IMG/VR virus record: IMGVR_UViG_3300029787_000241
Span: 1 to 28,695 of that record
Source: a virus
Reading direction: 5' to 3' (one strand)
DNA: 28,695 bases
The translations under genes and the position numbers were made by a program. The first letter of the stretch is position 1, and each line of letters starts with the position of its first letter. Under the pieces are notes generated by a model that was given only the letters and a program-made list of their open reading frames with translations, was not told the origin of the DNA and did no database searches. Below are positions 6,401 through 26,271 of this stretch, piece after piece.

Positions 6401-7354
6401 ACTTGCACCACCAACCCACTCAGCACCACCAGGAGTAGAATGATACATGATGTGACTATGTTGAGGGACACCAGAAAGTTTTCTTTCTCTCATTGATATA
6501 GTAACATCCTGACTACCAATAATTGTACAACCAGTAGTCTCAATTACTTGATCATATCCACTTGTAACGATTGTACCTAAAGAAAAATATTCATCTTGTT
6601 GATCTTTATCAAGATACCATGCACCACCTGTAGTACCTGTTGCAATACTGACATTTCCTATATTGGGAGAGTTGTTACCATATACAGGACCATTACCAAC
6701 TACCTTCTTGGCAATTAAATCAGGAACTTTAAATGTTCCTAAGTATTGATCACCCCAATTTTCTAGTACATTATTAGTATTAATAGGTTGTAATGTTGCT
6801 CCACCTTGAGCAGTTAGATCAGTCATTCTTAATGTAAATGTAGCACTAGTTCCACCTGCTACTGATACAGTAGGGACTGAAGTATATCCTGAACCACTAT
6901 TTGTGACGTTTAAATAAAGAATCTTTCCATTTGAATCAACAGATCCAACTGTTGCTTCCATATTAACTCCACCAGTAGGTGCAGCAGTTATTGTAACAAC
7001 AGATGATGTTGTATATCCTGATCCACCATTAACTACATCAATACCATTACTAGATCTTCCACCATATTTTGAACCAACAATCTGATATAATCCTGGATAA
7101 TCACCTATATTATATTCTGTCCCATCACAATATAAGTATCCTTCATGTGTATATGCTGGACTATCACCAGCAACATAAGCATTACCAGCAGATTCAGTTA
7201 AATTTGGATAGTTACTAGCAGTTGCCTTAACAAAACTATGATCATATGAATTTTGACCCGCTTTGAGGTTAGTTACAATAGAACCGATAGGTGTAGTATC
7301 TGTGAGAAGGTCTGTTAAATATCCCTTCCTAGCATTTCTATATCCTTGTGTCAT
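3500..7354 (-). CDS. tail fibre/adhesin with collar domain and polyglycine region
   Basis: The protein has 1284 residues. Residues 72-99 match the phage tail collar pattern (GYLYCDGTEYNIGDYPGLYQ, then YGG), resumed after an insert at TFKVPDL. The insert carries a GSGYT-type repeat (NGGSGYTTSSVVTI, NSGSGYTSVPTVSV), with a third copy near the C-terminal third (SSGSGYTETPYVYV). Residues about 465-865 are extremely glycine-rich, with uninterrupted runs of six to ten glycines around residues 735-785, as in phage adhesins that pack polyglycine helices. The C-terminus YLIKAY is shared with the 550-residue neighbour. It is a likely receptor-binding or distal fibre component outside the virion core. 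Glycine-coding bias produces several long false frames here. Confidence 0.85.
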   Translation of the reverse strand: MTQGYRNARKGYLTDLLTDTTPIGSIVTNLKAGQNSYDHSFVKATASNYPNLTESAGNAYVAGDSPAYTHEGYLYCDGTEYNIGDYPGLYQIVGSKYGGRSSNGIDVVNGGSGYTTSSVVTITAAPTGGVNMEATVGSVDSNGKILYLNVTNSGSGYTSVPTVSVAGGTSATFTLRMTDLTAQGGATLQPINTNNVLENWGDQYLGTFKVPDLIAKKVVGNGPVYGNNSPNIGNVSIATGTTGGAWYLDKDQQDEYFSLGTIVTSGYDQVIETTGCTIIGSQDVTISMRERKLSGVPQHSHIMYHSTPGGAEWVGGASGDRYLQDYKASTGRVTRWYPTGDGIVLTHKHGLLRQPLTDNTVATYDSLDYAGGAGGTGGTADPTAAFATGANEPGDYYLASGSGSGSYEFQTTIPNPICKPILTTTQLGGKLSTTGGTPIFDNSNEFEYTVPGTYTIDLTAITGTFDRLTYQMYGGGGSGGAGTQTGNNGTESHLKVGDGSKVFLKAAGGEGGGATSGLQGGLGKSGGASINTGSETAPGAITGQAGSAGTAGNSGNGWPYLDYPSNPNGGGSGGAQTGSYSDGSAGINVLVGGQSGSSTQEFTGDGTFNLTGITGLTSVTFELHGGKGRDSFYGGLAGGGGGKINISLKQSELANFTTAGWTCQIGPGATAKDGAQTSSSGDGGAGGNGHPGGSGTAHGGGGGAATALLRNGTCVAGAGGGGGGGSNGYDGGPGSPGQGNPLGGIQGTAQSLGMGGGGPGGNYGCIGGGGGGGGGGCGTPGQITGGVGNGGGSGGVGGGPGGDGGHGGGAGGNQGISSYSTNYFSTGTLVDSSLTNGKVIMVASYNNDYWTPGGGGGGAGGIWTGYVQFTNLGNPASVEVKVGSGGAGVSMSGQTTGTSNNGGDGYAKVQLGIITGYDNPQQITTSDALIKSASFSNTVDDVTINTNGAGTGTAGGFKLPTADPIVLISGGGGNGATATPVMTNGLVTGITVTSSGSGYTETPYVYVLHGQSGGTIATATLGSGGNSDKVDSITVASGSSKAYSNYVLFGGAHTQTAIGAKTRWVELMPVDTSNATHFSIKAARGNGVNGGDASEESMQIYYSTAGSPTTWILVDTIIAGRTTPRTDPFAGTIPQVDLNSNWDGAAGDTKWYTYTVSLPQNAKAAGTNFKVEQVRADSSSTNDNAGNTDHFAICEFVWWNGKATTLVYVPTAGKILKNNVDALTYTVQGEVGPSITYSSGLGCSDATLTLKATTKIEPQATIDPDIDVPLLHPYRTCKYLIKAY

Positions 7355-7356
7355 AA

Positions 7357-8742
7357 TTATATCTTAATTAGAAATTCCATCACAATAAATGGAGCAGTTG
7401 CAGAATCAATTGATCTTGAAGCATCAGCTCCCACAGTCATTGTTGTTGATAAATTTTCTGGATTAACAACAATAGCATTTGTTTTTACTTTATATGTATG
7501 ATCACCTTTGACTAAATCAACACGATGATTATGTAATGTTGGATCACCACTTGGTTGAGCTAGATCAGCAGTATCAGTTTCATTGTTCTGTACATCAGGA
7601 ACTACTCTACTTGTACTAACCTCTTGGTTTGATTGCATAGGCATAACATCATATAAACTTACACTATTAGAATCTAGTGGCACACCTTGTAATCCATTAG
7701 CATATGTTACAGGAACAGTAAAATTATGTGATGCTGATGCACCACCACCGATAGATATACATACTCCAAATAAAGGAGCATTAAGCATATTTGCATAGTA
7801 AGCAGTGTTTTGTCCATCTGGTGATCCATTTAATGTTCCACCATCCAAAGAATATTGTACATTATTAAGACATTGATATGTGTACTGAGTACCACCTGGT
7901 TCCCAACCACCTTGAATGCAATGACCCCAATAAATTGTTTGTTGTAATCCAGCTAACTGAGTACTAACTGCATTTCCACAAGGACTAACAGGACACCAAC
8001 GCTGAGTACGACATTGTTCTTGACCACTTCCAGGCGAATTACTACCATTTTTTGTAGCATCTAACCAATCCTGTATAGGAATTGTTGACGCATTTCTGTA
8101 TCCAGCAAATCCTTGCACCTGTGGTTCATTACTACTTGGTTCATTAGTTGTTAATATTCTTTCTCTAAGAGCATTATGAAAATGTGAATGTGGATGAATA
8201 GCATTTTCTTCAACACCCTCTGTATCAGTATAATGAGTAGCACCAGCGTATGTCCATGATGGTTTGCCTTTAACTTCAATCTCTTGACTAGGAACATTAA
8301 TCTGTCCTGTGTATTCTATATTAACAGGACTTCCTATAGCAGACTGTGCTTCAATACCAATACCAGATCTACTAAACTCATTACCTAAAGAATTATCTAG
8401 TCTTATATTATTATACACACCAGCGTTAGCACCTGAAGTTGGTTCTGCATACTTAGATCCCATATCAGGAACCATAAATTGAGTGTCTAATAAGGTATCA
8501 AAATCAGTGCCATCTGCATTTTTTCGTAAGAACTTGCAACTAGTTCCTACTCCACATATAGCAGCAAGTTGTGGATAATCAGCAGCAAAATATTTTGTGC
8601 CATCACATTTTAAATAACCAGCAGGTAAATTATTTTTATTTGCTCCGTCGTCTGGTAATCCACTGTAATCAACTGGCCAATTTATAATTTGACCTGTTAG
8701 ATTACCATACTTAGATCTTTCTTTACTGTATAAAACTGCCAT
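7357..8742 (-). CDS. tail fibre protein with collar domain
   Basis: The protein has 461 residues. Residues 42-65 read GYLKCDGTKYFAADYPQLAAICG, the phage tail collar domain, followed by FMVPDM, the second half of the same fold. Ahead of this, residues 13-27 (GNLTGQIINWPVDYS) match the N-terminal layout of the 550-residue paralogue. A HPHSHFHNAL histidine cluster, like the HxH metal sites of short-tail-fibre heads, lies near residue 185. The C-terminus ends EFLIKI, a variant of the FLIKAY ending of its neighbours. It begins one base inside the stop of the previous gene and is two bases from the next, so the three fibre genes are translationally linked. It probably forms trimers on the baseplate or fibre tip. 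Confidence 0.8.
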   Translation of the reverse strand: MAVLYSKERSKYGNLTGQIINWPVDYSGLPDDGANKNNLPAGYLKCDGTKYFAADYPQLAAICGVGTSCKFLRKNADGTDFDTLLDTQFMVPDMGSKYAEPTSGANAGVYNNIRLDNSLGNEFSRSGIGIEAQSAIGSPVNIEYTGQINVPSQEIEVKGKPSWTYAGATHYTDTEGVEENAIHPHSHFHNALRERILTTNEPSSNEPQVQGFAGYRNASTIPIQDWLDATKNGSNSPGSGQEQCRTQRWCPVSPCGNAVSTQLAGLQQTIYWGHCIQGGWEPGGTQYTYQCLNNVQYSLDGGTLNGSPDGQNTAYYANMLNAPLFGVCISIGGGASASHNFTVPVTYANGLQGVPLDSNSVSLYDVMPMQSNQEVSTSRVVPDVQNNETDTADLAQPSGDPTLHNHRVDLVKGDHTYKVKTNAIVVNPENLSTTMTVGADASRSIDSATAPFIVMEFLIKI

Positions 8743-10397: not shown

Positions 10398-13300
10398 TTA
10401 TAACTCCATTAACCACCAACCTCTTAATGAAGCTGGTATTGTTTGTTGTGTTGCAGATCCTTCTACATCATATGTACCAACATAAACTAATCCAAATGCA
10501 CAGTTACGTGTTTGAACAACCATTTCACCAGAATCCCATGCTACTGTCCTTGTTTGTCCAGCACCTGCTTCAAGTTTAGATCCAGTTGAATCACCTTGAA
10601 TTGCTGTAGCAACTGCATTGATCTTCTTCGCTCTAATAATCAAACTTGTATTATATGTTAGATTACCAGCAAGTTCAGTAAATCTAATCATATCACCTGT
10701 TTGTGGATTGTCTGGTAGATATAGAACCATATTACTTCCAGATGTAGAATTGATCAAATAGTTATTATTGTTCTGTAATGGGTTAGTCTCTTGTTGACCT
10801 ATACCAGTTGTAATATCAAATGCAACATATGTTTGTCTTCTACCACCATTTGCTGTCCAGTATTTTTCAATACCAAACGAATCAATAGCATTATTATGGT
10901 AAATTGCAAAGTCTTTAGGACCCTCAGTTCCACCAGTTCCAGCAGATCCAAGGTTATCAACATGGAACATCTTCTCAGACGCAGATTCTATAGCAAGAAC
11001 CTTACCCTTCTGATAGTATTTCTCTCCTAAGAAAATACTACCTTCAAGAGCTGTCATCTTGATAGATTCTACACTATTACAGACTCCAGTTGACTGACAC
11101 TGCTCATAGAATATTCTAAGATTACCAAAGAAGTTAGCAGCACCCTTGAGTGTCATACCATTGGTATTTGTTATAGGATCTTCAATTGATCCATCACCTG
11201 CATGACCATCATCATTAGCAATAGATAGAACTAAAGTTTTACTATCAGAACCATACATTCTGAATACACCACTGTTAATTGTAAAGTCATCATTAACAGT
11301 TGTATGACCACCACCAAATAAATCAACTAAAGTTGTAGAAGTGACGTTTGGATTCCTAATAGACTTAGGCATCTTAACTTGATAGAAAGCATCAAGACCT
11401 CCATCAACACTATCAGTAACAAAGAATTCGGATCCTATTCTGATAAACTGAATATAATCAAGTTTTGGTTGAATTAGATCAGCATCAACTAATCCTAATT
11501 CAAGTCTTGTATCAAGTTGATTAGGAGTTCTTGCCTTAAATGTCTTACCAGTTGTAGGTGCTCTTAATGCACGAGTAGCAGGTAAATCCTCTAATAATGT
11601 TGTAGTTCCTAACTTATTCAATTTAACAACATTAAGACCAACAGCAGCATTTATTGCAGTTGTTCCTTCTACACCTCTACCACCATTAGTATATGTGGCG
11701 TTAGATGATGTTGGTAAGAACTGATTAGATCCACTTACATATGGAGCAGCAGTAATTTGAATAATCTCAATCTGAGCACTATCGTAAATTGCTACATAAT
11801 CACCTATTGTAAATGATTCATAATTAGCTTGGATTTGAATGTTAGTGGTTGCTGTTACAACAGCAGCTGCTACTGTTGTAAATGGTCTTGTAGCAAGAGT
11901 CTGGTTAGTTGACTGTGGATCATGTTTATAAACATGAACTACATCAGATGTTGTATATCCAGAAGGTGTTGTACCATAAGATTCAGCGACAGCAAAATGA
12001 GTTCCATGTTTATTACCAATCGTTGTATCACCTGTACAGGTGTCAACTTCAAAGGTTTTAACACCACTACCATTTGTTATAGTTAACTTCTTGTTGGTAG
12101 TTGCATTTTGATATGCTGTGGTGCATGTGCCATTTAATGTGAAACCACCAGTATAAGAAGTATCACCATTGATAGTTACTTCACCAGTTACAGAATCAAC
12201 TTCAAATAATGTATTTTCTGAATTAGTATCACATCCATTTTTGACGGAGAATTTTTTAGCAACTTGTGATAATGTAGTCTTAAGTTCAAATATCTCACCA
12301 TCAGCACCGCCAGAAGGACGAGAAATAATTACATAGTCACCAGGTTGTCCTGTAGCACGACTATCTGAACCTGTTAATACCCCACCAAATTGTGATAAGT
12401 AAACATTATCCTCTGTTCCAGAACCATCAATAACTTGAGTAGTCCATGTAGCATCAAACTGAACATTACATTTATAAATGTTTGTTGTATCAGGATGCTC
12501 TGTGCTTGTTGTTGATAAAGTTCCAAATGGTTGTCTTTGTACCTCAATATAATATGGTGTAGTATTAATTTGTGGTAGACGTGTGATCTTAACAAATTCA
12601 GCATACTCTGTTCCCTGTTCAACAGTATCAATAAGTAGAATATCATTCTCGTTATAATACTGAACACCGTTAGCATCATAAGGAGTTCTCTTAATTGGTA
12701 AGTAGTACTTATCTCCTGTTAATACTGGGAATGTAGCAGCACTCTGTCCAGTAGGAGTTTGTTGATATGATGTTCCACCCCAATCACCAGAACCTGCGGT
12801 ATCAATCTTATTAAGTTCTCCTGTTGCAGCAGTAGAAACTAAGACAGTAATTAAATCTACATTATTATCAAAGAGATTATTACCAAGAATACCACTTGTA
12901 TGACTTTGAATTGTGGAACCAGCCTGTGCTCTACGTCCAACAAAGGAGTAAGAAGCATTACCGCCACATAATGTCATATCAGCATTAAATCTTGATGTAG
13001 CATCAACAACCAAGTTGTTTCTAATTGTAGTAGTACCACCTTGGCCAGCAATTCTTAATGTAGAAGCATTAGTAGCAAAATCAACTATACTTGTTGCACT
13101 ATTACCAGATAAGAATTCAACAGTTCCAGATGGAGACTCAAATTTAGTAGTATCAGTTAATCCTCTTCTAGTACCAAGTATTACATCACCAGAAGTCTTT
13201 AATGCCTTAGTATCAATCTGTACAAAAGAGTCAGACTCAGTGCTTGCGAATGCACCACCAAGAGTTAACTTAGATTTGTTAGTATTAGATCCATCAATAC

Positions 13301-16300
13301 TATCACCAATAGTAATCTCACTATCACCACTTGTATTACCAATCTTGATGTTTTGTGATCCAGTTGTTACATTACCAATTTCAATATTTCTTGCAGATCC
13401 ACCAACCAATAGACCTTGAGTTGGTCTAGTTCCAGTTGTTAAACCGACAAATGTATTGTTGTTGAATAGTGTTGCTGTACCATTAGTAATGGTTGTATTA
13501 ATATCAGCACTATTAGCACTACCAGCTCCACCACCATTGACTGATATATCGTCTTGGAATGTAGCACTAGCAGTAAATTCAGAAGTTCCAGTAACAGTTA
13601 ATGCACTGTTCATGTTTGCTAGAGTTGTATTAATACCAACTCTTCCATTATTTGTAGTAGAAACTCTAAATGTTGCTGCTGACTGTGGAGCAGAACTATC
13701 ACCACCGACCATGAATGCATGATCTTGAGCAGTTTGAGTTCTTGCTGCATATGTTGCATGAGCAGCAAAGTTTGCAATAGTCTTACCACTGATCCATGCA
13801 GTACCAACAACATCTAAATTAGCAAGAGGATCAGTCGCAGCAGATACAAATGCGTCTGCATAATCAACATGAGCAGCACGTGCAACAGTGTTAATACCAA
13901 TCTTATATTCACCAATAGTCTGTGTATCTGTTCTTATTGTCTGAGCACCAAGTACACCAACTTCCTTCCAAGAAGCATTTGCAAGTTTTATTACAGCATT
14001 TGGTGTATTAGTATTGTTAAATACCAACTCACCAGCTGAGATAGTATCATTAGCAGCAATACTGAATGTGCATGTGTTACCACCACTAGTAAATCCAGTA
14101 TTGATTAAGAAAGTTCCATTAAGTTTACTCTCACTCAACCCTACTAATTTAATTTCTTGACCAGCAATTAAACCACCAGTTATGACATTTGCATTAGTGA
14201 CACCAGATTTCCACTGAATAGTAATAGTTCTGGTAGAATTAAATATAAACTTCTCAATCTGAGATGTAATAGTTGTAAATGAGTTAGAGAATATCCAACC
14301 AAGTGAACCACTATTTCCTACAGACTCACCTTTAAGTAGAATGTCTCCAGTTAGAGGAGCACCAGCTGAACCATAAGCAACAACCTGTGATGCATCATAA
14401 GTTCCATCCTGATCAGGTGTAATATTAGATGCTACAGATGCAACAGCATGTGTCTGAATCTTATATCCTTGACCAGATCCGAGTGAACCACGTTGGTTAA
14501 ACTGGAATACACCAGCTGCTACTCTGTTACCTGCAATTATAATATCACCATTAGTCTGGCGATTTTTAGTCATCGCAGTTCTATCAAGAGATGAATCATC
14601 CTTAGTGGAAGATACATTAGAAGTTACCTTCAATGAAGATAGAACACCAACATTAGGAAGACCTAAAGTAAGATCTCTAACATCAGCTCCAACATTGATA
14701 GTTACAGGTGAATTGAATGTACTTGTTTGATCTCCATTCTCACCACCATTGACTGTGATATACTCATTAAATGTAACAGGAGTATCAAATGTAGTAACTA
14801 GATTTCCTACTGCATCATCCTCATCATCAGATCCAACAAGTGATGCAGACTCTAGGAATATTTCTTCACCAGTGATAGCATCAATCTTACGATTACCAAT
14901 GTATAGATCACCGTTAGAGTTAAGACCAGTATAGAATACTAAACCACCATCTTGTTTCTTAGACTGTGCATAGAAGTCTTGAGTTGTACTCAATAGAACT
15001 TCTTGACGTGCTGGTAAACCAGTGGAGTAGTTACCTGGACCAAAACCAAGGTATTCAAATGTGTGGTTTCCTGCTCTCGCAATAGATGGTCTTCGTAACT
15101 CAACGTACATACGTTGATCTACAACAACTGTACTGTCACCTGCAATTGGAATCTTACGATCTTCTGATCCAGCAGATGCATTACCATTTTGTGCTTCAAG
15201 TATGTTACTACCTGTGTAGTTATTATTCTTAAGTGCTTCAGTAGCAAGGAAATCAGTAACGGATTCTTTAGTTAATGAACCTTTAAAATCGTTAACTGTA
15301 ACTAAACCATGAACATAGTTGTCAGCAGCAGAATATGTTTGACCAGGATCTTTAGCACTAGGATTAAGTTGTTTGAACCATAATGGATCGTTCTTATAAT
15401 CTAATGGATATAACTTACTAATTGGTTGAGAGAACTTAAAGTTCCTAAAGTTACCTAAGTTACCTGCACCCTGTGGGAATGGAGATATGTTACCACGAAC
15501 AGCTGTTAGATAGAATATACCATCTTGCTGATCAAAGATACGTCTTTGTATTTCTTGAACATCATAAACATAGAATGTTTCATCAATCTCACCAGCATCC
15601 TCTACAGACTCAACATAGAATTGTATATTAGCAGCATCAGTAATAATATCACCAGGTGTGATGGTGTAAACCTTAGCACCATTTTGTCTGTAATAAAATT
15701 GTGGTAGATTTTCTTTAATAAGATCTTTACGTACAAGTGACTTACCACTGTTAGGGAAATCTAAAAGATCTGCAAATACAGAACCTTGAGTAAATCTAAT
15801 ATTATCTGTAGAAGAATACTTAATATCACCACTAACACCCTTTATAATTAAATGCCATGTAGTTGTATTAGGTACTTGCAATGCAGCATGAATATAACCA
15901 GAACCAGATGAATTACCAGTCCATGTTACAGCGTTGGCAGTTACAGATGATGTCTTGTTAGCAGTAAAGTTACCACCTTGAGGTGCAGTTATCTTAACTG
16001 TTGTAAAGTTCTCATTCTTAAGTCCAACATTTGTAATATTATGGTCAAATACAGTAAGTTCTAAGTATTCATTGCTATTTTCTGTATAATATCTACCAGA
16101 CTGAATAGACATTGAAACATAGTTTGATGTCTCAATAGTTCTTAGATAGTTTTTAGTTCCTGAAGTATCTTTCTTATATGGATCATAGAATATGTTCTCA
16201 CCAGAAGCATTGGTTTTAGCAATACTATTTGAGGTAAAGTCAGCATCTTTGAATCCAATAACTTCGTTTGCATTACCACTATCAGTTGTGTTAAAGAACT

Positions 16301-19300
16301 TCGCTTTAGTTACATTACCTGTGACTGGTTTTAATTTAATTTTTTGTGGTAAAAGTTTTCTTGTATCGTCCTTTCTTGCCTTGATACTAAATCCATTTAG
16401 AGGATCACGAACAGACTTTAGATACTTTGGAATAACATAACGTAAACGATATATACGATCATTTGCTTCTCTAGCAGAATCATCAATTCTTTCATAATAT
16501 GAATCATTTGTTTTGTTATTACCAGAACTATCACTATATTCAGAATCATGGAATCTTCCTAAAATACTCTGAGCATTTGAAGATTCATTCTTAACATTTA
16601 AGTACCACTTTCCTTTATCAGTAGTTCCAACATTACCATCATATGTTGGATCATAACGCATGGGTGACTCACGCTTATCTGAGAATACAGAGAAGTTATA
16701 TGTTCCACTATTTAAAGGAACAAATATAATAGGATTAGATCCTGATATTGCATCAGCATGTGTTTTATGTACTGTAATTACCTTAGCAGTATTATACTTA
16801 GCATAGAAGAACTTGTCTCCTCTAAGTCTGCTACTACCGTCAGCAACATCAGGATCACTAGCGGAAGATCCACCTACAACTGGTAAGTTACCACCTTCAT
16901 TCTTTCTAAAGAATACTTTATGAGATGTAACAGAAGCGTTAGGAACATCAAATATATGAGGAATATCTGTAATAATTCCACCACTAACAGCAGTTGAAAG
17001 TACACAACCATATTCATGTAGATCGTACTTATCATCAAGAACAAATTGATAGATATCAATTTCAACATCTGGATGAATCGCTTCTACTTCAGCAGAGTGA
17101 ATGTAGATACCAGCAGCAGCGTTATCTTTGCTGTTTGCAAGCATTAATTTAGTTTGATCACTTCCATTAAATGTTGTTGTGCCAGAGTAATCTTCTGGTT
17201 TTGTAATTCTACCTGGTGCAATTACATAATACTCTGTATTAGTATCAAAACCATTAGGTAGTCTTACATTACGCTTATCAACTTCAACATACTGGTTAGT
17301 TGTTGTATTATAACGGGGTCTTGGAACCAATCTTACGGGAGTTCCAGTTTCTAATTGATGAGGATTAGATCCTGATGTTGGTCCTGGTGTCCAATCCTTC
17401 AATCCCCAGATAGTTGATCTGGCAGCAAGGCTAGAAGTAGGATTAGAAGGTTGAGTTCTAGTGACAGTTCCTACACCTGTTTGAATGATTGTTGTAATAT
17501 TAGCAAAGTACTGACGTATGGTATCAGAAACACCCACACATTCAGGATAGGTTGTATCTTGAGTAATAGTTTCATCAACATCTGGTGTATATGCAGTTGT
17601 GTATCTACCAGATGGTAGTGTGAAGTAGAGATATGTATTGGTTGTAGTAGCAGTGCTATTAACAGCATTACCTGTTGACAATCCAAGTGGAGCAACATTT
17701 CTTTCAATAGAACTTAAATTACCCTGTGTAGTAATTGTGTCTGTAATCAACTTGAACAGAGTTGTAGCAGCAGAAGCAACATTCTGACAAGGACCATTAG
17801 AGATGTTTCTAGTTACATTGTTTAGTGAGGTTGGTGTAGTTATAGTATCAGTAACAATCTTGAATAAAGTATCAAGAGTAGATTTAACATTATCACATCT
17901 TGCACTACCTGTATGTCCTGTCCTAGTTACAGCAGCGAGAGTTTCTGGTGCTGTAATAGCATTCTGTACAATATTAGATAGAGTAGTAATTGAAGACTCT
18001 ACAGCATTACACTTATAAACTGATTGAGTACGTGTAACATTTTTGAGTGTTGAATTATTACTAATTGCATTAGTTAAAATAGTTGATAATGTAGTAACAT
18101 TACTAATTTCATTTGCTAATTGTGTATCAGTCCAATTAGCAGTACTAGCACCAGAGTAAATAACTTGACTTAGTGCAGTATGTCCACCAACAGTAACTGT
18201 ATCACTCTTAATTATTTGAAGAGCAATATCTTTTAAATGGTTAATAGCTTCTACTGTCTCAGTAATAGCACCACCCTGTACAGCACCACCAACATATAAG
18301 TTAGCAGTATCCCATACACGATCATTACCACCATGTTTGATATTAAATGCAATTACATCAACGATGTCTAACAAGTCATCATTACAGTCAGCAATTGTAT
18401 AACCAACAGGAGGAGTATAACCACTATTGTTAGCTAACATTCTACCTTGTGCTATGTCAGCAATAAACTGTCTATTAAGTGTTAACAGAGTTGCAGAATC
18501 ACCTGCTTCATCACTTGAAATACTTAAATTATCACCTGTAATTGTATTATCAAATGTTTGTGTCAATCCATGTTTACCAACAACAAGAACCTTTTCATTT
18601 CTCATTGCTTGGATTGCTATTTGTGTAGCATCTTGGAATGCTTCTAATGTTTGAGTCTCTTCACCAGCAACATGAGCACCCTTAACATATAGGTTTGCCA
18701 TATCCCAGACTCTATCATTACCACCGAACCCTACATTAAATGCAACTTCAACAACAAAGTCCTTGATGTCATCAATACAGTCTTGCTTGTTACCAGTTGG
18801 AGGTAAGAAACCAGGATGGTTAAGAAGCATTCTTTCATATGCTTCTGCTGCAATAAATGCAGCATTAGAATTTAGAAGATTATATGCGTCGCCAGCACCA
18901 TTGTTTACAGAGATTTGAGTGTCTAATGTAATTGTAGTATCATAAGTCTGTGTTAATCCATGAGAACCAACAGCAAGAATTTTTTGGTTCTTAATGACCT
19001 GAGCTGCCATGTCTTTGGCATGTTCAAATACTATATTAGTCTCAGTTTCTTCACCCGCAACATGAGCACCAGTTTTGTATGAATATGCAGCATCCCATGT
19101 CTTATCATTACCACCATACGCTACGTTATCTGCAATTGATTCTAATAGATCTCTAACATCATCAACACAATCAGAGTTATGATATGTTCTATTACCTGCA
19201 ACAGAGAATATCTTATGAACTGAATCAGTCTTAGCAGATATAAATGTGTGTGGATAACTACCACCACCCTTAACTACTGCTCTCTTAATACTATTAGCAA

Positions 19301-22300
19301 CAGCAGATACAAATGTATGAGCAGTTGTGTTAGTAGAAGGTGTAGTATCTAATGTTTGTATACTAAATGTGTTAGCATCAGAAACAGTAATCTTAGTCCA
19401 CTTATTACTGATAGGGTCAGTAGAACGAGGATACGAATGGTTTGTTGCATTATTATCCTGAGCACATGTAAATGTGACTGAGTTATCAGCCATCTTAATG
19501 TAATCATCAGTTTGCATTCCATGATTAGCAACAGTCAATACCATTATACCTGTGGTTGGGTTATATACAGCATTGGTTGGAGTTAAATCAGTTGCAGCAA
19601 CGAACTGATGATCATATTGATCGCCAGCAGCAGAAGCACCAACATTAACTGTGATAGTTCCTGCTTGTTTCTCAATAGCATTAGTTGCAGCTCTCTTGAA
19701 TGTGTGAACACTAGCTGGTTCATACTTGATACTATCTGCTACACCACTATCAAATGTGTGTGCAGACTGTGGAATGTATTGAATTGCTTCAGCAAGAGCA
19801 CTTACAAATGTATGTGTGTATTGATTATTTGCATCAGCATCAAATCCAACATTAAATGTAATTTCTCCAGTTTGTTTCTTAATTCCATTAGTAGTAGCAC
19901 TTACAAATGTATGTGTAGAACTATCAGAAGATTTACCAACATTAACTGTAAATGTATTTGTTGTTTTACTTCTTATTTGTAACCATCTTCCACTTGGATA
20001 ATCAAAACCAGCACGAGGATAAGTTTTCTGTGCTGAGTTACCATCAAGACTACATGTAAATGTTAATCCACCATCAGCAACTTGAATATAATCACCGCCG
20101 TTTGTAACACTATTAGCAACAGCAGATACGAATGTGTGTACAGTTGTATTAGTAGATGGAGTGTAGTCAAGAATCTTGACATCAAATGTGTTTGTTGTTA
20201 CATTAGTAACAGTAAGAGCTCTGCCACTTGCAGGATCATTTGGTCTTGGATAGGAATGATTAGTTACATTACCATCTTGAGCACATGTAAATTTAAGAGC
20301 ATAATCAGAAATTCTTACAAAATCATTGTTGTCTAAACCATGATTTGCAATAGTAAGTGTTACAATACCTGTAGTAGGATTATATGCAGCGTTTGTTGGA
20401 GTGAATACAGCAGGACCGTTGAACCCATGATTCGCAACTGTAATTGTTAAATCACCAGTTGTAGGAGTATATGTTGCATTTGTTGCAGTATGATCAGAAG
20501 AACTAACCGCTGTGATTGGTATAGACTTACCTGCTTTAGGGTCAGTGCCAGGACGAGGATAAGAATGCTGAGTTGCATTACCATCCTTAGAACATGTAAA
20601 GGTTAATGAATTATCTTTAAGAACTATGTCATCTCCAACACGCAAGCCATGTTGTCCTACGGTAGCTACCATGACACCTGTTGCAGCGTTATATGAAGCA
20701 CCTGAAGGCTTAAAGAATTTGTTAGTACCAGCGTTACCTACCTTAACAGTGATGGTTGTTGCTGTTACACTTGTAATTTTTAGTGATCTACCAGATGCTT
20801 GATCTCTACCTGCACGTGGATATGACTGTGCTGTATCATTACCATCCATTGTGCATTTGAATGACACTGCACCATTTTCAATTAAGACTCCCTTTCCTTT
20901 CTTGAGACTATGAGCTCCGATAGTTAAAGTTAAATCACCACTCGCAGGATCATATGTTGCATTTGATGGTGTAAATGTTTGATTAGAACCAGCAGCACCA
21001 ACTGATACTTTAAATGTATCAGCAGTTGCACTAGAAACTGTCAACCACTCAGCATCAGCAGGATCTCCCTCTCTTGGATACTTATGCTCTGTAGCATTAT
21101 TATCCATTGCACATGTAAATGTTAGAGAATCAGTCGCAAGTCTAACTCTATCTCCATTAACAAAACCATGAGATGTTTTTGTAAAAACTAAATCACCATT
21201 TGCAGGTGTATATGCAGCACCTGTAGGTGTTAAGAAAGAACTACCAACCTTAGTAATCTCTACTGCATTTTGATATGATCTATCTTTTCTTCTAAGGATA
21301 GCATTAGTAGCAGCACTAACAAAAGTATGTAATGATACGTTTGTTGAGGGTGTGATATTTAAAGTTTGTATATCAAATGTGTTTTGTGTTACGTTAGATA
21401 CAGGAACAAACTTACCACTAATAGGATCTGTACTACGTGGATATGTTTTCTGAGTTGCATTACTATCAGTAGCACAAGTAAATGTTAATGAATTATCTAC
21501 AACCTTAATTAAATCTAGATTCTCAAACCCGTGAGAATTGAGAGTAAATGTGATGAAACCTGTTGTTGGATTATATACAGCGTTTGTAGGAGTATGCTGA
21601 GTTGTATCACTTCTAGGATATAAATGATCACTAGCATAAGAATCCTGAGAACATTTGAATTTTAGAGAACCATCAGCAATTCTAACACTCTGTCCTTTAT
21701 GGAACTTATGATCATTAACAGTTAACTTAAGATCACCAGTTGCAGGATCGTAATCTGCATCTGTTACATCAAAATTAGTAGTTGGTGACTTTCCAACATT
21801 TATTGTAAATGTATCATTAGTAGCATCTTCAAGAGGAAGTATGCTTGCACCAGCAGGATCTCCTGATCTAGGATATGAATGCTGTGTAGCATAGTTATCC
21901 ATACCACAAGTAAAGTTCAATGCATTGAAATCTATTCTGACTGCATCATTCTCTCCTAAAACACTATTACCAACAGCAGATACAAAGGTATGAGTACCAG
22001 CAGTAGAATCATTAGCAGGTCCAACATTAACTTCAAATGTATCTGTTGTTTTATTTGATATTGTTAACCACTTTCCACTAGAAGGATCAGTTGCACGTGG
22101 ATAAGAATGATTAGTTGCATTGCTATCTTTAGTGCATGTAAATGTTATTGAATTATCTCTAATTAAAATTCTCTGACCATTAGTAAATCCGTGACTAGCA
22201 ATAGTCAATGTCATTACACCTGTAGTTTGGTTGTATACAGCATTAGTAGGTGAGTGTATACTTGCTTTGGTCATACCATGAGCTGTTGATGTTATAACCA

Positions 22301-25300
22301 TCACACCAGTCTCGGCATCATATGTTGCATTTGTAGGAGTATACTTCTGAGTTGATGATTCAACAATCATTCTCTCAACCGACTCAGCAGCGATTATATT
22401 TTTATTAGCAAGTATAAGATTACGAGCATCACCATTTCTATCAGCAACTAATTCTGGTTGATCAGTAGCAACAGGATCATTAGCAGTAGTATAATCTTGT
22501 GTTAGACCATGAGAACCAAAGATAAACACATTCTCTTTACGCATGACTTGAATCGCCATGTCCTTACAATAGTTGAATGCAGCAAGAGTCTCATTTTTAT
22601 TTGATGTTGCATTTGCAATAGAACCTCTTTCATAATAATCAGCAGCATCCCATGTTTCAGCGTTTCCACCATAACCTGTGTTATCTGCAACAGCAGTTAT
22701 TGCACTTTCTAAATCAGTAATAAATGTAGCTTTAGTATATCCACTAGCAGCTGTATAACTAGGATAATCAAGAAGCATTCTGTCATATGCTTCATTCGCA
22801 ATGAATGTTTTATTATTAATAATCAATGCACGGGCATCACCAAAACGACCCGTTACAAACTGTTTAGTTGCTGTCTGTGCGTTATCACCCAACTCAATAG
22901 AAGCTGAGTCAAGAACTCTCTTAACAAATGTACTGTTAGGGATTACAGGGGTTGTTGGTCTTGTTGCACCAGCATTCAACTTTCCATTAGTAAACTGACT
23001 AGGATCGTAATCAGCAACTGTCATACCTTCTACAACACCACTGGTATCACCAATATTAACAATAGCACTGTTATTAGTAGTATCTACACCTGTACGTAAG
23101 TATGTGAAGTTACGCATTGCAGCGATTGCAAGATCCTTAGCGTAATTGTAACCTTCTAAAGTTTCAGTTAGTTCACCATCAATATAAGATAGATTAGTAC
23201 CAACATAGTAAGATTCAGCAGCTTGAATAGTATTGATGTTGCCACCAAGTCTTAGATCCTGAATTGTAGCATCAATTAAATACCCAACGTCTCTACGACA
23301 TTTGGTTATAGTAATTGTTTCTTTTACCTTAAGTGTTGGATACTTAGCGAGAATACGATCATATGCTTCATGTGCGATGAAATCTTTATTTGCTTCAATT
23401 CTATCAGCAGCGTCAAGAATCTTATTATTAATAGTTACACCAGAAGGATTTAATATATCTGCTATAGCAGTAAATTTTTTAAATCCACTTGGTTCTAAGG
23501 TTGCAAAGAATGTATTATTACCACCAGCAGTTCTTGGATTTAACTTGACATATAATTTATCTTCTGTTTTAGCACCAATCCTATATCCACCAATAGTAGC
23601 AGCAGGACGTTTCTTTGGATCTATTGCACCATCATCACCATGATATATTTTTGTATTGTTGCCAGGATCGTTAGATGCATAAACATCAAGAGTATAGTAT
23701 GACTGTCTCTTAACATTTCCAGAGGTCTCATCAACTGTTTGAGGAGGAATAATATCTGTAACAAATCCACCCTTATCTTGGTTAAACGCAAATCCTTTGA
23801 AACCAATAGCATGTAAGGATGTGTTACCAAAGTTAGAGTTAGAGTTGGTGATTGACATGTCACCACCACTTTCCATTAGGAAGTGATCAGCGAAACCAAC
23901 AGCGAAGATACTAACACACTGAATGAATGAATCTTCAGATGCACGAACGTGGAAGTTTCTCCAATCATCTTTCCAGAACGCATCACCTTTTGTGTGATAT
24001 GGAACTGTAGCAAATGCATCTGTTAAGGATGCTTGATTGAATGTGTTTGTAAACTCATCATATCTAATGAATGCTCTATCATCTTTCTGTAGAGATACAC
24101 CAGTATACTGAGCAATAACCATTGATTTGAAACCAGTGGCTTTTAAACCATTCGCCCAGATACCACAAATTCCCCATGTAGAACGAATAGAACAGTTGAA
24201 CACGTAGGGGGATGCAGATTCAACTGAGTCAACTTCTGCTTTTACGACTGCATTGGAATTTAAGCCATTTGCTGTGGTATAAGTTGTACCACTCACAAGA
24301 CTAGTATTTGTACCTAACGCACTTACACTGCCAGGAATTTGGTAGGAAAATTTCTTCTTATCTACCAAATCAAGAGATGAAATTGCAAACGTGCCATCTA
24401 TCTGATCATCTAGACCATTACTTTCAACTGCAATGAACTGGTTTCTAAAGTAACCATGATTAACTTTTGTAGTTACTTCAACAGTAATAGTCCCTCTTGG
24501 AGAGGAATCAGTACACTTAATGCTTTCAATAGCACGAATATCTGATAGAGGACCTACGATTCTGTTTTCTTCAATTCTATCTCCAAACTCGTTAGAATCA
24601 TCAATTGTTGGTTGATACTGTGAGAATGCTTTAGCAATTTTCTGATAATATATTCCTAACTCTTCCTTATCTGCGTATTCAAATACAGTTAATTTGTGGT
24701 GAGAGAAGTTTGGAACAGCAAGATCAGTCCATGCACTACCAGGACTATCAGCAGGTGGTGTTTGATAATAAACTTTACCTACACCATCAGTTGAATTGTA
24801 TAATGGAGAAGTTGGTTCTAAATCACCATCTTTAATAGTAAACTGCCAGAAGTAAGTACCACCAGTTACATTGAAGATTGCTGATCTTGGTTCAATTGGG
24901 TCAGCAGGATCAGGAACATATAAAGGACGTACAATAGTTCTACGTAGATCGTAACCAATGATAGAAGAACCACGAGGAATAATAACACCACCTTCAGTGT
25001 TATTAAATTTGTAGAGAATATTATTTGGATCGGAAAGGTCTAGAATGGAATTATCGTTCCACTCACTTAATGCTTGGTCAAAGTTAAATTCATTGATACC
25101 TGTAGTAGAAGTGAGACCAGGACGGTTATCAATGTAATGGTTACCAGGCATTACCATGACAGTGAATTGATCAAACCTGTCGTTGTCTATTCCTGGTACG
25201 TAAGAATAACGTGAAATTTCTATAAATGCTCTCTGTAAAGACTTAAACGGTCTTATAGGAGAGTTACCTCTATTATTCAGTTCATCTGAAGCGTTAAAGT

Positions 25301-25370
25301 CGTCAGGTGAGACATACAAATACTTACCAGTCTTACTACTGATAAGATTATCAAGTCTTGTCAATGCCAT
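10398..25370 (-). CDS. giant virion structural/tail fibre protein (4990 aa) with nested repeats
   Basis: This is one uninterrupted frame of 4990 residues. Order of parts: residues 1-640, a beta-rich N-terminus (MALTRLDNLISSKTGKYLYV start; GVIIPRGSSIIG and STWGICGIWANGLKATGF stretches of beta-helix look), of a kind common in cyanophage structural proteins. About 655-2400 holds five copies of a helical repeat (NKxFIAxEAYDRML ... TWDAAxxY ... KDMAIQVMR ... SHGLTQ). About 1005-2055 is a beta-repeat array with ten YPR signatures inserted in the third copy. About 2410-2640 has about five short C-x-V ... TLxxIxxxxI ... VTR repeats. About 3450-4300 resembles a fibrous triple-stranded shaft (NIEIGNVTTGSQNIKIGNTS). 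The C-terminal domain includes YLPDNPQTGDMIRFTE and ends RGWWLMEL. There is no signal peptide. A TATAAATA late promoter lies 36 bases upstream. It is probably a long fibre or tail-associated protein; which one is unknown. Confidence 0.85.
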   Translation of the reverse strand: MALTRLDNLISSKTGKYLYVSPDDFNASDELNNRGNSPIRPFKSLQRAFIEISRYSYVPGIDNDRFDQFTVMVMPGNHYIDNRPGLTSTTGINEFNFDQALSEWNDNSILDLSDPNNILYKFNNTEGGVIIPRGSSIIGYDLRRTIVRPLYVPDPADPIEPRSAIFNVTGGTYFWQFTIKDGDLEPTSPLYNSTDGVGKVYYQTPPADSPGSAWTDLAVPNFSHHKLTVFEYADKEELGIYYQKIAKAFSQYQPTIDDSNEFGDRIEENRIVGPLSDIRAIESIKCTDSSPRGTITVEVTTKVNHGYFRNQFIAVESNGLDDQIDGTFAISSLDLVDKKKFSYQIPGSVSALGTNTSLVSGTTYTTANGLNSNAVVKAEVDSVESASPYVFNCSIRSTWGICGIWANGLKATGFKSMVIAQYTGVSLQKDDRAFIRYDEFTNTFNQASLTDAFATVPYHTKGDAFWKDDWRNFHVRASEDSFIQCVSIFAVGFADHFLMESGGDMSITNSNSNFGNTSLHAIGFKGFAFNQDKGGFVTDIIPPQTVDETSGNVKRQSYYTLDVYASNDPGNNTKIYHGDDGAIDPKKRPAATIGGYRIGAKTEDKLYVKLNPRTAGGNNTFFATLEPSGFKKFTAIADILNPSGVTINNKILDAADRIEANKDFIAHEAYDRILAKYPTLKVKETITITKCRRDVGYLIDATIQDLRLGGNINTIQAAESYYVGTNLSYIDGELTETLEGYNYAKDLAIAAMRNFTYLRTGVDTTNNSAIVNIGDTSGVVEGMTVADYDPSQFTNGKLNAGATRPTTPVIPNSTFVKRVLDSASIELGDNAQTATKQFVTGRFGDARALIINNKTFIANEAYDRMLLDYPSYTAASGYTKATFITDLESAITAVADNTGYGGNAETWDAADYYERGSIANATSNKNETLAAFNYCKDMAIQVMRKENVFIFGSHGLTQDYTTANDPVATDQPELVADRNGDARNLILANKNIIAAESVERMIVESSTQKYTPTNATYDAETGVMVITSTAHGMTKASIHSPTNAVYNQTTGVMTLTIASHGFTNGQRILIRDNSITFTCTKDSNATNHSYPRATDPSSGKWLTISNKTTDTFEVNVGPANDSTAGTHTFVSAVGNSVLGENDAVRIDFNALNFTCGMDNYATQHSYPRSGDPAGASILPLEDATNDTFTINVGKSPTTNFDVTDADYDPATGDLKLTVNDHKFHKGQSVRIADGSLKFKCSQDSYASDHLYPRSDTTQHTPTNAVYNPTTGFITFTLNSHGFENLDLIKVVDNSLTFTCATDSNATQKTYPRSTDPISGKFVPVSNVTQNTFDIQTLNITPSTNVSLHTFVSAATNAILRRKDRSYQNAVEITKVGSSFLTPTGAAYTPANGDLVFTKTSHGFVNGDRVRLATDSLTFTCAMDNNATEHKYPREGDPADAEWLTVSSATADTFKVSVGAAGSNQTFTPSNATYDPASGDLTLTIGAHSLKKGKGVLIENGAVSFKCTMDGNDTAQSYPRAGRDQASGRSLKITSVTATTITVKVGNAGTNKFFKPSGASYNAATGVMVATVGQHGLRVGDDIVLKDNSLTFTCSKDGNATQHSYPRPGTDPKAGKSIPITAVSSSDHTATNATYTPTTGDLTITVANHGFNGPAVFTPTNAAYNPTTGIVTLTIANHGLDNNDFVRISDYALKFTCAQDGNVTNHSYPRPNDPASGRALTVTNVTTNTFDVKILDYTPSTNTTVHTFVSAVANSVTNGGDYIQVADGGLTFTCSLDGNSAQKTYPRAGFDYPSGRWLQIRSKTTNTFTVNVGKSSDSSTHTFVSATTNGIKKQTGEITFNVGFDADANNQYTHTFVSALAEAIQYIPQSAHTFDSGVADSIKYEPASVHTFKRAATNAIEKQAGTITVNVGASAAGDQYDHQFVAATDLTPTNAVYNPTTGIMVLTVANHGMQTDDYIKMADNSVTFTCAQDNNATNHSYPRSTDPISNKWTKITVSDANTFSIQTLDTTPSTNTTAHTFVSAVANSIKRAVVKGGGSYPHTFISAKTDSVHKIFSVAGNRTYHNSDCVDDVRDLLESIADNVAYGGNDKTWDAAYSYKTGAHVAGEETETNIVFEHAKDMAAQVIKNQKILAVGSHGLTQTYDTTITLDTQISVNNGAGDAYNLLNSNAAFIAAEAYERMLLNHPGFLPPTGNKQDCIDDIKDFVVEVAFNVGFGGNDRVWDMANLYVKGAHVAGEETQTLEAFQDATQIAIQAMRNEKVLVVGKHGLTQTFDNTITGDNLSISSDEAGDSATLLTLNRQFIADIAQGRMLANNSGYTPPVGYTIADCNDDLLDIVDVIAFNIKHGGNDRVWDTANLYVGGAVQGGAITETVEAINHLKDIALQIIKSDTVTVGGHTALSQVIYSGASTANWTDTQLANEISNVTTLSTILTNAISNNSTLKNVTRTQSVYKCNAVESSITTLSNIVQNAITAPETLAAVTRTGHTGSARCDNVKSTLDTLFKIVTDTITTPTSLNNVTRNISNGPCQNVASAATTLFKLITDTITTQGNLSSIERNVAPLGLSTGNAVNSTATTTNTYLYFTLPSGRYTTAYTPDVDETITQDTTYPECVGVSDTIRQYFANITTIIQTGVGTVTRTQPSNPTSSLAARSTIWGLKDWTPGPTSGSNPHQLETGTPVRLVPRPRYNTTTNQYVEVDKRNVRLPNGFDTNTEYYVIAPGRITKPEDYSGTTTFNGSDQTKLMLANSKDNAAAGIYIHSAEVEAIHPDVEIDIYQFVLDDKYDLHEYGCVLSTAVSGGIITDIPHIFDVPNASVTSHKVFFRKNEGGNLPVVGGSSASDPDVADGSSRLRGDKFFYAKYNTAKVITVHKTHADAISGSNPIIFVPLNSGTYNFSVFSDKRESPMRYDPTYDGNVGTTDKGKWYLNVKNESSNAQSILGRFHDSEYSDSSGNNKTNDSYYERIDDSAREANDRIYRLRYVIPKYLKSVRDPLNGFSIKARKDDTRKLLPQKIKLKPVTGNVTKAKFFNTTDSGNANEVIGFKDADFTSNSIAKTNASGENIFYDPYKKDTSGTKNYLRTIETSNYVSMSIQSGRYYTENSNEYLELTVFDHNITNVGLKNENFTTVKITAPQGGNFTANKTSSVTANAVTWTGNSSGSGYIHAALQVPNTTTWHLIIKGVSGDIKYSSTDNIRFTQGSVFADLLDFPNSGKSLVRKDLIKENLPQFYYRQNGAKVYTITPGDIITDAANIQFYVESVEDAGEIDETFYVYDVQEIQRRIFDQQDGIFYLTAVRGNISPFPQGAGNLGNFRNFKFSQPISKLYPLDYKNDPLWFKQLNPSAKDPGQTYSAADNYVHGLVTVNDFKGSLTKESVTDFLATEALKNNNYTGSNILEAQNGNASAGSEDRKIPIAGDSTVVVDQRMYVELRRPSIARAGNHTFEYLGFGPGNYSTGLPARQEVLLSTTQDFYAQSKKQDGGLVFYTGLNSNGDLYIGNRKIDAITGEEIFLESASLVGSDDEDDAVGNLVTTFDTPVTFNEYITVNGGENGDQTSTFNSPVTINVGADVRDLTLGLPNVGVLSSLKVTSNVSSTKDDSSLDRTAMTKNRQTNGDIIIAGNRVAAGVFQFNQRGSLGSGQGYKIQTHAVASVASNITPDQDGTYDASQVVAYGSAGAPLTGDILLKGESVGNSGSLGWIFSNSFTTITSQIEKFIFNSTRTITIQWKSGVTNANVITGGLIAGQEIKLVGLSESKLNGTFLINTGFTSGGNTCTFSIAANDTISAGELVFNNTNTPNAVIKLANASWKEVGVLGAQTIRTDTQTIGEYKIGINTVARAAHVDYADAFVSAATDPLANLDVVGTAWISGKTIANFAAHATYAARTQTAQDHAFMVGGDSSAPQSAATFRVSTTNNGRVGINTTLANMNSALTVTGTSEFTASATFQDDISVNGGGAGSANSADINTTITNGTATLFNNNTFVGLTTGTRPTQGLLVGGSARNIEIGNVTTGSQNIKIGNTSGDSEITIGDSIDGSNTNKSKLTLGGAFASTESDSFVQIDTKALKTSGDVILGTRRGLTDTTKFESPSGTVEFLSGNSATSIVDFATNASTLRIAGQGGTTTIRNNLVVDATSRFNADMTLCGGNASYSFVGRRAQAGSTIQSHTSGILGNNLFDNNVDLITVLVSTAATGELNKIDTAGSGDWGGTSYQQTPTGQSAATFPVLTGDKYYLPIKRTPYDANGVQYYNENDILLIDTVEQGTEYAEFVKITRLPQINTTPYYIEVQRQPFGTLSTTSTEHPDTTNIYKCNVQFDATWTTQVIDGSGTEDNVYLSQFGGVLTGSDSRATGQPGDYVIISRPSGGADGEIFELKTTLSQVAKKFSVKNGCDTNSENTLFEVDSVTGEVTINGDTSYTGGFTLNGTCTTAYQNATTNKKLTITNGSGVKTFEVDTCTGDTTIGNKHGTHFAVAESYGTTPSGYTTSDVVHVYKHDPQSTNQTLATRPFTTVAAAVVTATTNIQIQANYESFTIGDYVAIYDSAQIEIIQITAAPYVSGSNQFLPTSSNATYTNGGRGVEGTTAINAAVGLNVVKLNKLGTTTLLEDLPATRALRAPTTGKTFKARTPNQLDTRLELGLVDADLIQPKLDYIQFIRIGSEFFVTDSVDGGLDAFYQVKMPKSIRNPNVTSTTLVDLFGGGHTTVNDDFTINSGVFRMYGSDSKTLVLSIANDDGHAGDGSIEDPITNTNGMTLKGAANFFGNLRIFYEQCQSTGVCNSVESIKMTALEGSIFLGEKYYQKGKVLAIESASEKMFHVDNLGSAGTGGTEGPKDFAIYHNNAIDSFGIEKYWTANGGRRQTYVAFDITTGIGQQETNPLQNNNNYLINSTSGSNMVLYLPDNPQTGDMIRFTELAGNLTYNTSLIIRAKKINAVATAIQGDSTGSKLEAGAGQTRTVAWDSGEMVVQTRNCAFGLVYVGTYDVEGSATQQTIPASLRGWWLMEL
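17450..18145 (-). repeat. VTR repeat block in the giant protein (about 5 units)
   Basis: Successive units of roughly 35-45 residues share a leading cysteine, a helical core TLxxIVxxxIxxPxxL and the end VTR or IER: CNAVESSITTLSNIVQNAIT, CDNVKSTLDTLFKIVTDTIT, CQNVASAATTLFKLITDTIT and a diverged copy starting CVGVSDTIRQYFANITT. A first copy lacks the cysteine. The hydrophobic spacing suits a short coiled coil. Confidence 0.7.
18170..23405 (-). repeat. helical EAYDR repeat family, five copies, one split
   Basis: Five copies of a unit of about 120-160 residues encode a helix pair (NKTFIANEAYDRMLLDYPSY), then a GYGGNxxTWDAAxxY segment, a KDMAIQVMRKE helix and a closing SHGLTQ. Approximate positions are 23405-23085, 22845-22495, 22445-22360 joined to 19200-18945, 18905-18560 and 18510-18170. 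The third copy is interrupted between its first helix and its TWDAA segment by the YPR array. Confidence 0.75.
19205..22355 (-). repeat. YPR beta-repeat array, ten signatures
   Basis: Units of about 80-110 residues follow TPTNAxYxPTTGxxxLTxxxHGF, then DNSLTFTCxxDxNATxHSYPR, DPxSGxWL and a closing TFxVNVG, often with HTFVSAxxNSI. Ten YPR signatures are readable. At least three units are cut short: a start that restarts after AHGM, one that ends just after YPRSD, and one that restarts after NHGFNGP. The similarity is clear at protein level and also visible in the DNA. Confidence 0.8.
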
Positions 25371-25413: not shown

Positions 25414-25474
25414 CAAGTAAAGCACTAGGTTTGACTGGGGTTCTAAAATTTTACATAGAAGTAATTTTAACCAT

Positions 25475-25498
25475 TAAAAAAGAGGGCATTACACCCCC
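25475..25498 (-). terminator. rho-independent terminator of the tRNA-tmRNA unit
   Basis: On the minus strand GGGGGT, loop GTAAT and GCCCTC (with one G.T and one T.G pair) form a six-pair stem followed by six T. It lies directly after the tmRNA coding piece and so ends the cpeT-HNH-tRNA-tmRNA transcript. Confidence 0.75.
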
Positions 25499-25499
25499 T

Positions 25500-25737
25500 A
25501 GGGTTGTTGGGTTACAAGGACAACCTATCCCCGATCTCTCCTATGCAGTCGCTAGTTCACGAGTGCGAGAGAATGCAACGATTTTATTCGCTGCGAAGTT
25601 AGATGTTTTTGCATCTGTGGTTTGCTTATCCAAGCAGGTTTCAGTCATGTCCCTTATACCCCGTCAAAACCAGTGCATCCCCGTGATGGAGATGAGGGGA
25701 GTTGAACCCCTGTCCGAAATGTAGGTTACATCACCTA
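25500..25737 (-). ncRNA. ssrA: circularly permuted (two-piece) tmRNA
   Basis: The acceptor piece comes first on the minus strand (about 25737-25687), with the hallmark TTTCGGACAGGGGTTCAACT, a T-arm (AGGGG/CCCCT) and the acceptor strand CATCTCC plus discriminator A. After only four bases (TCAC) the coding piece begins at 25682 with GGGGATG and the D-loop TGGTTTTGACGGGG. GGGGATG pairs with CATCTCC over seven pairs and keeps the G3.U70 wobble that alanyl-tRNA synthetase needs. The tag frame at 25594-25541 encodes AANKIVAFSRTRELATA then TAG; the resume codon is GCA or the next GCG. A stem GGTTGT/ACAACC follows. CCA is not encoded, so it must be added. The product rescues stalled ribosomes and tags proteins. 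Order and tag match alpha-cyanobacterial ssrA. Outer ends are approximate. Confidence 0.9.
25541..25594 (-). other. tmRNA proteolysis-tag reading frame
   Basis: The frame GCA GCG AAT AAA ATC ... GCA TAG encodes AANKIVAFSRTRELATA inside the tmRNA coding piece. The ANKIV-FSR core is that of marine picocyanobacterial tags. The end LATA differs from the usual hydrophobic-Ala-Ala ending. Confidence 0.85.
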
Positions 25738-25753
25738 TTCCCCATAAGGGGAA
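25738..25753 (-). other. hairpin between tRNA-Arg and tmRNA
   Basis: TTCCCC, loop TTAT and GGGGAA form a perfect six-pair hairpin filling the space between the tRNA-Arg discriminator and the tmRNA acceptor piece. There is no T-run after it, so it is more likely an RNA-processing spacer or part of the precursor than a terminator. Confidence 0.5.
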
Positions 25754-25827
<74 letters not shown>

Positions 25828-25917: not shown

Positions 25918-26271
25918 TTAGGATGGTAACAATATTAAATCAGGTAACTTTTTGATACCTGCATGTACGAGTCTGTGACAATTAGAACATAATGGAACGC
26001 ACTTGTTGACTTCTTCCAGAAGTTTATCATATGGTCCTGTCCTTGTCAACCCTGTCAGGGAAACAGTTTTCTCGCTGTTGTCTGCACGATGAAGATCCAT
26101 TACACATATAGGATACTGTATATTACAACAGACACAAGGATTTGACTTGGCATCATCTACCAACTTCTGTCTATTTTCAGGACCACGTTGGTTGATTCTC
26201 TTAGTCTTGCCGTGTTTTCTAGCCCATTCACGCTGATATTCTCTATTCTTCTGTTTGTCCTTTATTGGCAT
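25918..26271 (-). CDS. HNH endonuclease-like protein
   Basis: The protein has 117 residues. The N-terminus is very basic (MPIKDKQKNREYQREWARKHGKTKR), suited to DNA binding. The C-terminal part has a zinc-binding HNH layout: C46-x-x-C49, then DLH61 as the first catalytic His, and CVPLCSNCHRLVH with C95-x-x-C98, H99 and H103. The length and layout fit small free-standing phage HNH nucleases, some of which act in homing or DNA packaging. Its start lies 29 bases inside the upstream 50-residue ORF, and its stop is four bases before the tRNA-Met gene, so it seems to be part of the same transcript. A homing role near the RNA-gene cluster is inference. Confidence 0.8.
   Translation of the reverse strand: MPIKDKQKNREYQREWARKHGKTKRINQRGPENRQKLVDDAKSNPCVCCNIQYPICVMDLHRADNSEKTVSLTGLTRTGPYDKLLEEVNKCVPLCSNCHRLVHAGIKKLPDLILLPS

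Follow-up and report, generated by a model that had tools for sequence, protein, structure and literature searches.

We find a full-length circularly permuted tmRNA gene of the cyanobacterial type in a T4-like cyanophage, encoding a tag whose degradation end is unlike that of any sampled host. The gene lies on the minus strand of the window, the whole 28,695-base stretch analysed here, which is an uncultivated virus record from IMG/VR and a metagenomic fragment. We consider that it is probably a working two-piece tmRNA of a lytic T4-like cyanophage, long resident in phages, dependent on the host, and altered in its C-terminal signal. As judged from sequence and its comparison with relatives, the gene anatomy is complete, the pairing is compensatory, and the tag core is conserved while the tag end is changed. 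Two-piece phage tmRNAs are known as a kind, and the window is not a first; the comparative change of the tag end in phages appears to be new.

An Infernal search with Rfam models, which the sequence-only reading had proposed for its candidate permuted tmRNA, gave two high-scoring matches on the minus strand. The match to RF01851 (cyano_tmRNA) extends from 25770 to 25483 and covers model positions 1-288 (124.4 bits, E 1.2e-33, above the gathering score; cut-off 70 bits), and the match to RF04321 (tmRNA_permuted) extends from 25735 to 25586 (77.3 bits; cut-off 47 bits). ARAGORN, which is independent of Rfam, called a permuted tmRNA* at the same locus, and the proposed identity is thus confirmed. 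The reading placed the gene at 25500-25737 and gave no strand. Its locus is right, and the full gene is slightly longer, with the Rfam match reaching upstream to 25770 and a 3' hairpin and T-run at 25499-25480 (Table 1).

The internal anatomy agrees with that reading. The acceptor piece is encoded 5' of the coding piece, all seven pairs of the acceptor stem form, the alanine identity pair G3.U70 is present, and the discriminator is A. The ends it predicted, 25687 and 25682, are exact, and the four-base TCAC junction without an encoded CCA is present at 25686-25683. A tag frame runs from an alanine resume codon (GCA at 25594 or GCG at 25591) to a stop codon. A search for the tag core pattern gives one match in the window and none in 100 shuffles. 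The folding of 25735-25483 is better than that of all 200 dinucleotide shuffles (z -3.2). The region has 5 terminator-like sites, versus 0.9 in shuffles. No riboswitch scored above the Rfam cut-off. A 97-aa plus-strand ORF antisense to the gene (25431-25724) is probably a chance frame.

Table 1. Features of the permuted tmRNA gene and its neighbours in the window, and tRNA genes located within the junction in related viral loci (locus handles begin with L).
Feature	Position	Strand	Basis or remark
Permuted two-piece tmRNA gene, cyanobacterial type	25483..25770	-	RF01851, RF04321, ARAGORN
Acceptor piece with upstream hairpin and T arm	25687..25770	-	cmscan alignment, sequence, pairing; 5' limit is the Rfam match limit, not the mature end
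T-arm stem; loop TTCAACT	25711-25707/25699-25695; loop 25706-25700	-	sequence, cmscan alignment
Acceptor 3' strand CATCTCC	25694-25688	-	sequence, pairing
Discriminator A	25687	-	sequence
Junction TCAC without encoded CCA, predicted to be cut out	25683..25686	-	sequence
Coding piece with tag frame and pseudoknot region	25500..25682	-	cmscan alignment, pairing, sequence
Acceptor 5' strand GGGGATG, start of coding piece	25682-25676	-	sequence, pairing
Tag frame (A)ANKIVAFSRTRELATA-stop	25541..25594	-	ARAGORN; frame set by the conserved ANNIVAFSR core
Terminator-like hairpin AGGGGGTGTAATGCCCTCT then T-run, 3' end of gene	25480..25499	-	more terminator-like sites in the region than in shuffles
tRNA-Arg (TCT), directly upstream of tmRNA	25754..25827	-	ARAGORN
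tRNA with CAT anticodon	25839..25913	-	ARAGORN; RF00005 57.8 bits
Nested tRNA-Tyr (GTA) in relatives	L336:1471-1553; also L337, L346, L366, L375, L377, L383, L388, L397, L409, L412, L420, L422		
Nested tRNA-Asn (GTT) in relatives	L260, L372, L374, L384, L414		

The setting is that of a cyanophage tRNA cluster, as the sequence-only reading had stated: two tRNA genes lie upstream, and the window proteins are T4-like cyanophage in kind (tail collar, short tail fibre, CpeT, heme oxygenase, HNH endonuclease, and DNA methylase). Its relatives point to a marine cyanobacterial host. The tRNA with the CAT anticodon is probably tRNA-Ile2 (lysidine-modified CAT), because the matching tRNA of phage Sf-FS3 carries that annotation. 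An HNH endonuclease gene (25918-26271, minus strand) lies directly upstream of the tRNA-tmRNA cluster; in phage S-WAM2, an HNH gene is also found within the corresponding tRNA cluster. Directly downstream of the tmRNA is a very large, tail-fibre-like reading frame of 4990 aa (10398-25370, minus strand); its matches are short tail fibre genes from Synechococcus phages. In Sf-FS3 and S-SSM7, the tmRNA likewise stands shortly before a large fibre gene.

A survey of 18,146 phage genomes counted 53 two-piece tmRNAs, of which 50 were marine or aquatic, and the accompanying tree has a cyanobacterial branch common to host and phage tmRNAs (PMC9004378, 2022). A later list holds 79 phage tmRNAs (PMC11915505, 2025). 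The literature searched yielded no description of the tag-end pattern, most subscription papers lying outside that search. The marine phages Melnitz, Mosig, and AG-345-P14 (PMC9004378) resemble the window in being marine myophages with a complete permuted ssrA, but the Melnitz copy is of the alphaproteobacterial type with a glutamine riboswitch, whereas that of the window is cyanobacterial. We find the window's type in the isolates S-CAM1, S-CAM3, S-SSM7/S-SSM6a, Sf-FS3, and S-CRM01, in most of them adjoining tRNA genes. Full-length covariance matches were obtained in S-CAM1, S-SSM7, Sf-FS3, and S-CRM01, as well as in the single-cell virus AG-345-P14. Sf-FS3 has the same ...FSRTRELATA tag end as the window, while S-CAM1 and S-CAM3 end in STVAA, S-SSM7 in DELVTA, and S-CRM01 in ...TSLVAAL. 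The records examined for S-CAM1, S-CAM3, S-SSM7, Sf-FS3, and S-CRM01 carry no tmRNA annotation. Hypothetical proteins are drawn over the gene in S-SSM7 (L221:2504-2722, T4-GC 1277), S-CAM1 (L219:2474-2599), and S-CAM3 (L425:1500-1640), and these are probably spurious frames. Four further phages (S-RSM4, S-WAM2, S-H9-1, and S-BM3) matched through tRNA-Tyr alone, with no tmRNA above the Rfam cut-off in the stretches fetched.

Virus loci were collected with three scans: one for an acceptor and junction pattern, with no selection on the tag; one for the tag core, which selects on the core and not on the end; and one for the start of the coding piece, which yielded few additions. Host loci were collected by the acceptor and junction pattern, not by the tag. 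An alternative pattern, GGGGNTGCANTGGTTTYGACGGGGNANNAAGG, gave 5 matches and was too strict. ARAGORN loci with the core AN[NK]IVxFxR numbered 139 among viruses (the window copy, L001, excluded) and 118 among hosts, corresponding to 109 and 113 distinct sequences, respectively. Eleven phage loci were unparsed and were left out of the pairing count and the tree.

Pairing and tag frame are conserved throughout this set. All seven acceptor pairs, G3.U70, and A73 are present in each of the 99 parsed phage copies and the 113 hosts. Phages show two-sided changes at acceptor pair 5 (GC, AT, TA, and CG), at pair 6 (TA and CG), and at several T-stem pairs, and the covarying acceptor strands sit in separate pieces. 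All 109 distinct phage copies retain the tag frame, the resume-side Ala codon, and the stop; these copies were recognised by their tag core, so that tag-less copies would escape. Codons of the tag core vary synonymously while the core is conserved, although its conservation comes in part from the selection of loci. The 3' half of the window tag folds into a hairpin, and RNA pairing there could explain part of the codon conservation, such as the ACT codon found in 46 of 46 LxTx tags.

Among the known tmRNAs closest to the window gene is the two-piece tmRNA of marine Synechococcus and Prochlorococcus (RF01851). The two share the permuted order, seven-pair stem, G3.U70, A73, short junction, absence of CCA, and tag core AN[NK]IVxFSR, with a full-length covariance match. 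The window differs in a much lower bit score, a locus in a phage tRNA cluster, and a tag that ends in ELATA rather than APVAA, with the stop TAG rather than TGA. This difference at the tag's degradation end, which the sequence-only reading missed, is in our view the most interesting point of the locus. Host tags have 16 residues, an Ala-Ala end, and the stop TGA in 113 of 113 distinct sequences, nearly all of them ending in APVAA. In phages, by contrast, 80 of the 109 distinct tags lack the Ala-Ala end. Over all 109, the last two residues are TA (39), AA (29), LV (14), TV (12), AV (8), LA (3), VA (2), PA (1), and AL (1). The 80 tags without Ala-Ala have ends that include LATA, LVTA, TALV, PSLV, and AVAV behind a retained ANNIVAFSR core. 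All three stop codons are used. The difference is also seen in the scan that was unselected for the tag: Ala-Ala is absent from 19 of 23 distinct cyanobacterial-type phage tags, versus 6 of 27 other permuted viral tags, which may include prophage or host sequence (Fisher P 4e-5).

Such variety might reflect drift, if selection acts on ribosome rescue and not on degradation in cells that lyse within hours. The spread of phage tag lengths (14-25 residues, versus 16 in all hosts) and the many ends are consistent with drift, and in H. pylori a truncated tag still permits rescue and viability (PMC2584231). The changes are nevertheless restricted. Of the 109 phage tags, 108 close with Ala or Val, and 108 have Thr, Ala, Leu, or Val just before the last residue. 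Residues such as Ser, Gly, Asp, Glu, and Pro, each one base change away from an Ala codon, are never found as the last residue. LATA and LVTA recur, and the fourth-last Leu of LxTx tags is encoded by six different codons. Thus, the changed end looks like a constrained shift rather than free drift, and we regard drift as unlikely, while the most serious of the alternatives.

A phage tmRNA could instead act as a decoy, either by titrating SmpB or by blocking trans-translation of the host in another way, and it would compete with host tmRNA for SmpB. The precedent is mycobacteriophage DS6A, in which a phage-borne tmRNA domain lacks a tag frame; a molecule of this type inhibits tmRNA in E. coli (PMC4131195, PMC11915505). 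A decoy has no need of a tag, however, and the window copy has one, as do its relatives, in which frame, Ala codon, and stop persist through synonymous change. The conserved pairing, tag core, and constrained end together argue against both decay and a DS6A-type tag-less decoy, which we consider improbable.

The gene form and the Rfam family are shared with hosts, and a few viral contigs carry the host end QAAPVAA, as would be expected if phages had recently picked up an ordinary host ssrA with no phage-specific change. In a tree built without tag and junction, however, 99 phage and 30 host tmRNAs are split by one branch in 100% of bootstrap trees; the tmRNA has therefore long been resident in phages. 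Phage copies score 74-170 bits, versus about 285-329 among the host matches listed. With a tag end in the window unlike that of all hosts sampled, recent pickup is very improbable. On the same tree, 11 changes are needed between Ala-Ala and other ends, 7 of them forced by well-supported branches, so the end change has recurred or reverted several times, although recombination inside the gene may inflate these counts. Least credible is a non-functional relic or leftover attachment site, since tmRNA genes are common integration sites but this one is complete, with compensatory pairs in relatives, a retained terminator-like hairpin, a T4-like lytic context, and no integrase among the window proteins searched.

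A working phage tmRNA would depend on its host at several steps. The gene would be transcribed with the upstream tRNAs, and the 25499-25480 hairpin would end the transcript. The TCAC junction would be excised by RNase P and 3' tRNA-processing enzymes of the host, the host CCA-adding enzyme would complete the acceptor piece, and host alanyl-tRNA synthetase would charge it, with the acceptor stem and adjoining helices holding the two pieces together. No SmpB and no ClpP was found in five isolate genomes that carry such a tmRNA, and host SmpB and ClpP would therefore be required. With host SmpB, the phage RNA would rescue ribosomes stalled during infection; the virus would thus supply ribosome rescue, as the sequence-only reading proposed, and the appended tag (A)ANKIVAFSRTRELATA would replace the host ANKIVSFSRQTAPVAA on rescued fragments.

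As a degron, the altered C-terminal signal is probably weaker, or is read differently. In the E. coli tag, a change of the last or second-last Ala raises the KM of ClpXP (PMC7652416). For engineered tag ends in Synechocystis, the order of strength is LVA > AAV > ASV (Huang 2010, as given in PMC3446811, where the set ranked does not include LATA). By analogy with these data, Val ends, and probably Thr-Ala ends, are expected to be weaker degrons than Ala-Ala, although the cyanobacterial protease might accept Thr as the second-last residue. We favour a signal that has been retuned rather than abolished, because the end residues stay small and hydrophobic. We tentatively suggest, as a possibility rather than a probability, that the degradation end of a tmRNA captured from the host was reprogrammed several times in cyanophages, so that rescue is kept while the products are spared, slowly degraded, or rerouted to another protease.

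tmRNA both releases stalled ribosomes and marks the unfinished protein for destruction; if our suggestion is true, the virus separates these two functions of trans-translation. An invariant host end set against a changed but constrained phage end makes the reason why some phages carry tmRNA a testable question. The tag ends also offer a simple marker to distinguish phage from host trans-translation products in proteomics of infected cells.

The recurrent placement of a tRNA gene inside the junction of relatives is, together with the tag-end change, a point that deserves a specialist's second look. About a fifth of the loci are so arranged: an entire tRNA gene lies inside the permuted tmRNA junction in 17 of 81 tag-scan loci, and in one locus (L260) from another scan. 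These loci form about nine distinct sequence groups, and about 10 changes on the tree (8 at the least) are needed to account for them. Maturation of a nested tRNA requires excision of the junction, which indirectly supports junction cutting. A single case has been described, a tRNA-Ala in a nominally archaeal MAG, and was called unique (PMC11915505). The nested phage genes span about 340-393 nt, while the longest host match among the matches listed is at most 344 nt. The inner tRNA is hidden by the Rfam clan filter. Phage acceptor stems that seemed broken proved to belong to loci with a nested tRNA, with the sole exception of L360, which has a mis-set start.

The four-base junction of the window, by comparison, is no oddity: without a nested tRNA, junctions are 4-11 nt in phages and 5-29 nt in hosts, with 6 nt in most sampled hosts. 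As in the window, no CCA is encoded in any of the 118 host loci.

Several further observations concern individual loci. In S-CAM1, a wcaG RNA motif (RF01761, 83.5 bits) lies at L219:5066-5162, about 2.3 kb downstream of the tmRNA. Two viral loci have paired matches to the acceptor-junction pattern about 740 nt apart (L005:5631-5673 and 6371-6413; L056:7253-7295 and 7993-8035). ARAGORN calls one of the two as tmRNA in each, and the second match is possibly a partial duplication. Finally, one viral contig (L415:5547-5937) carries a one-piece standard tmRNA with the tag ANNIVPFARKAAPVAA, a cyanobacterial tag with the host-type end.
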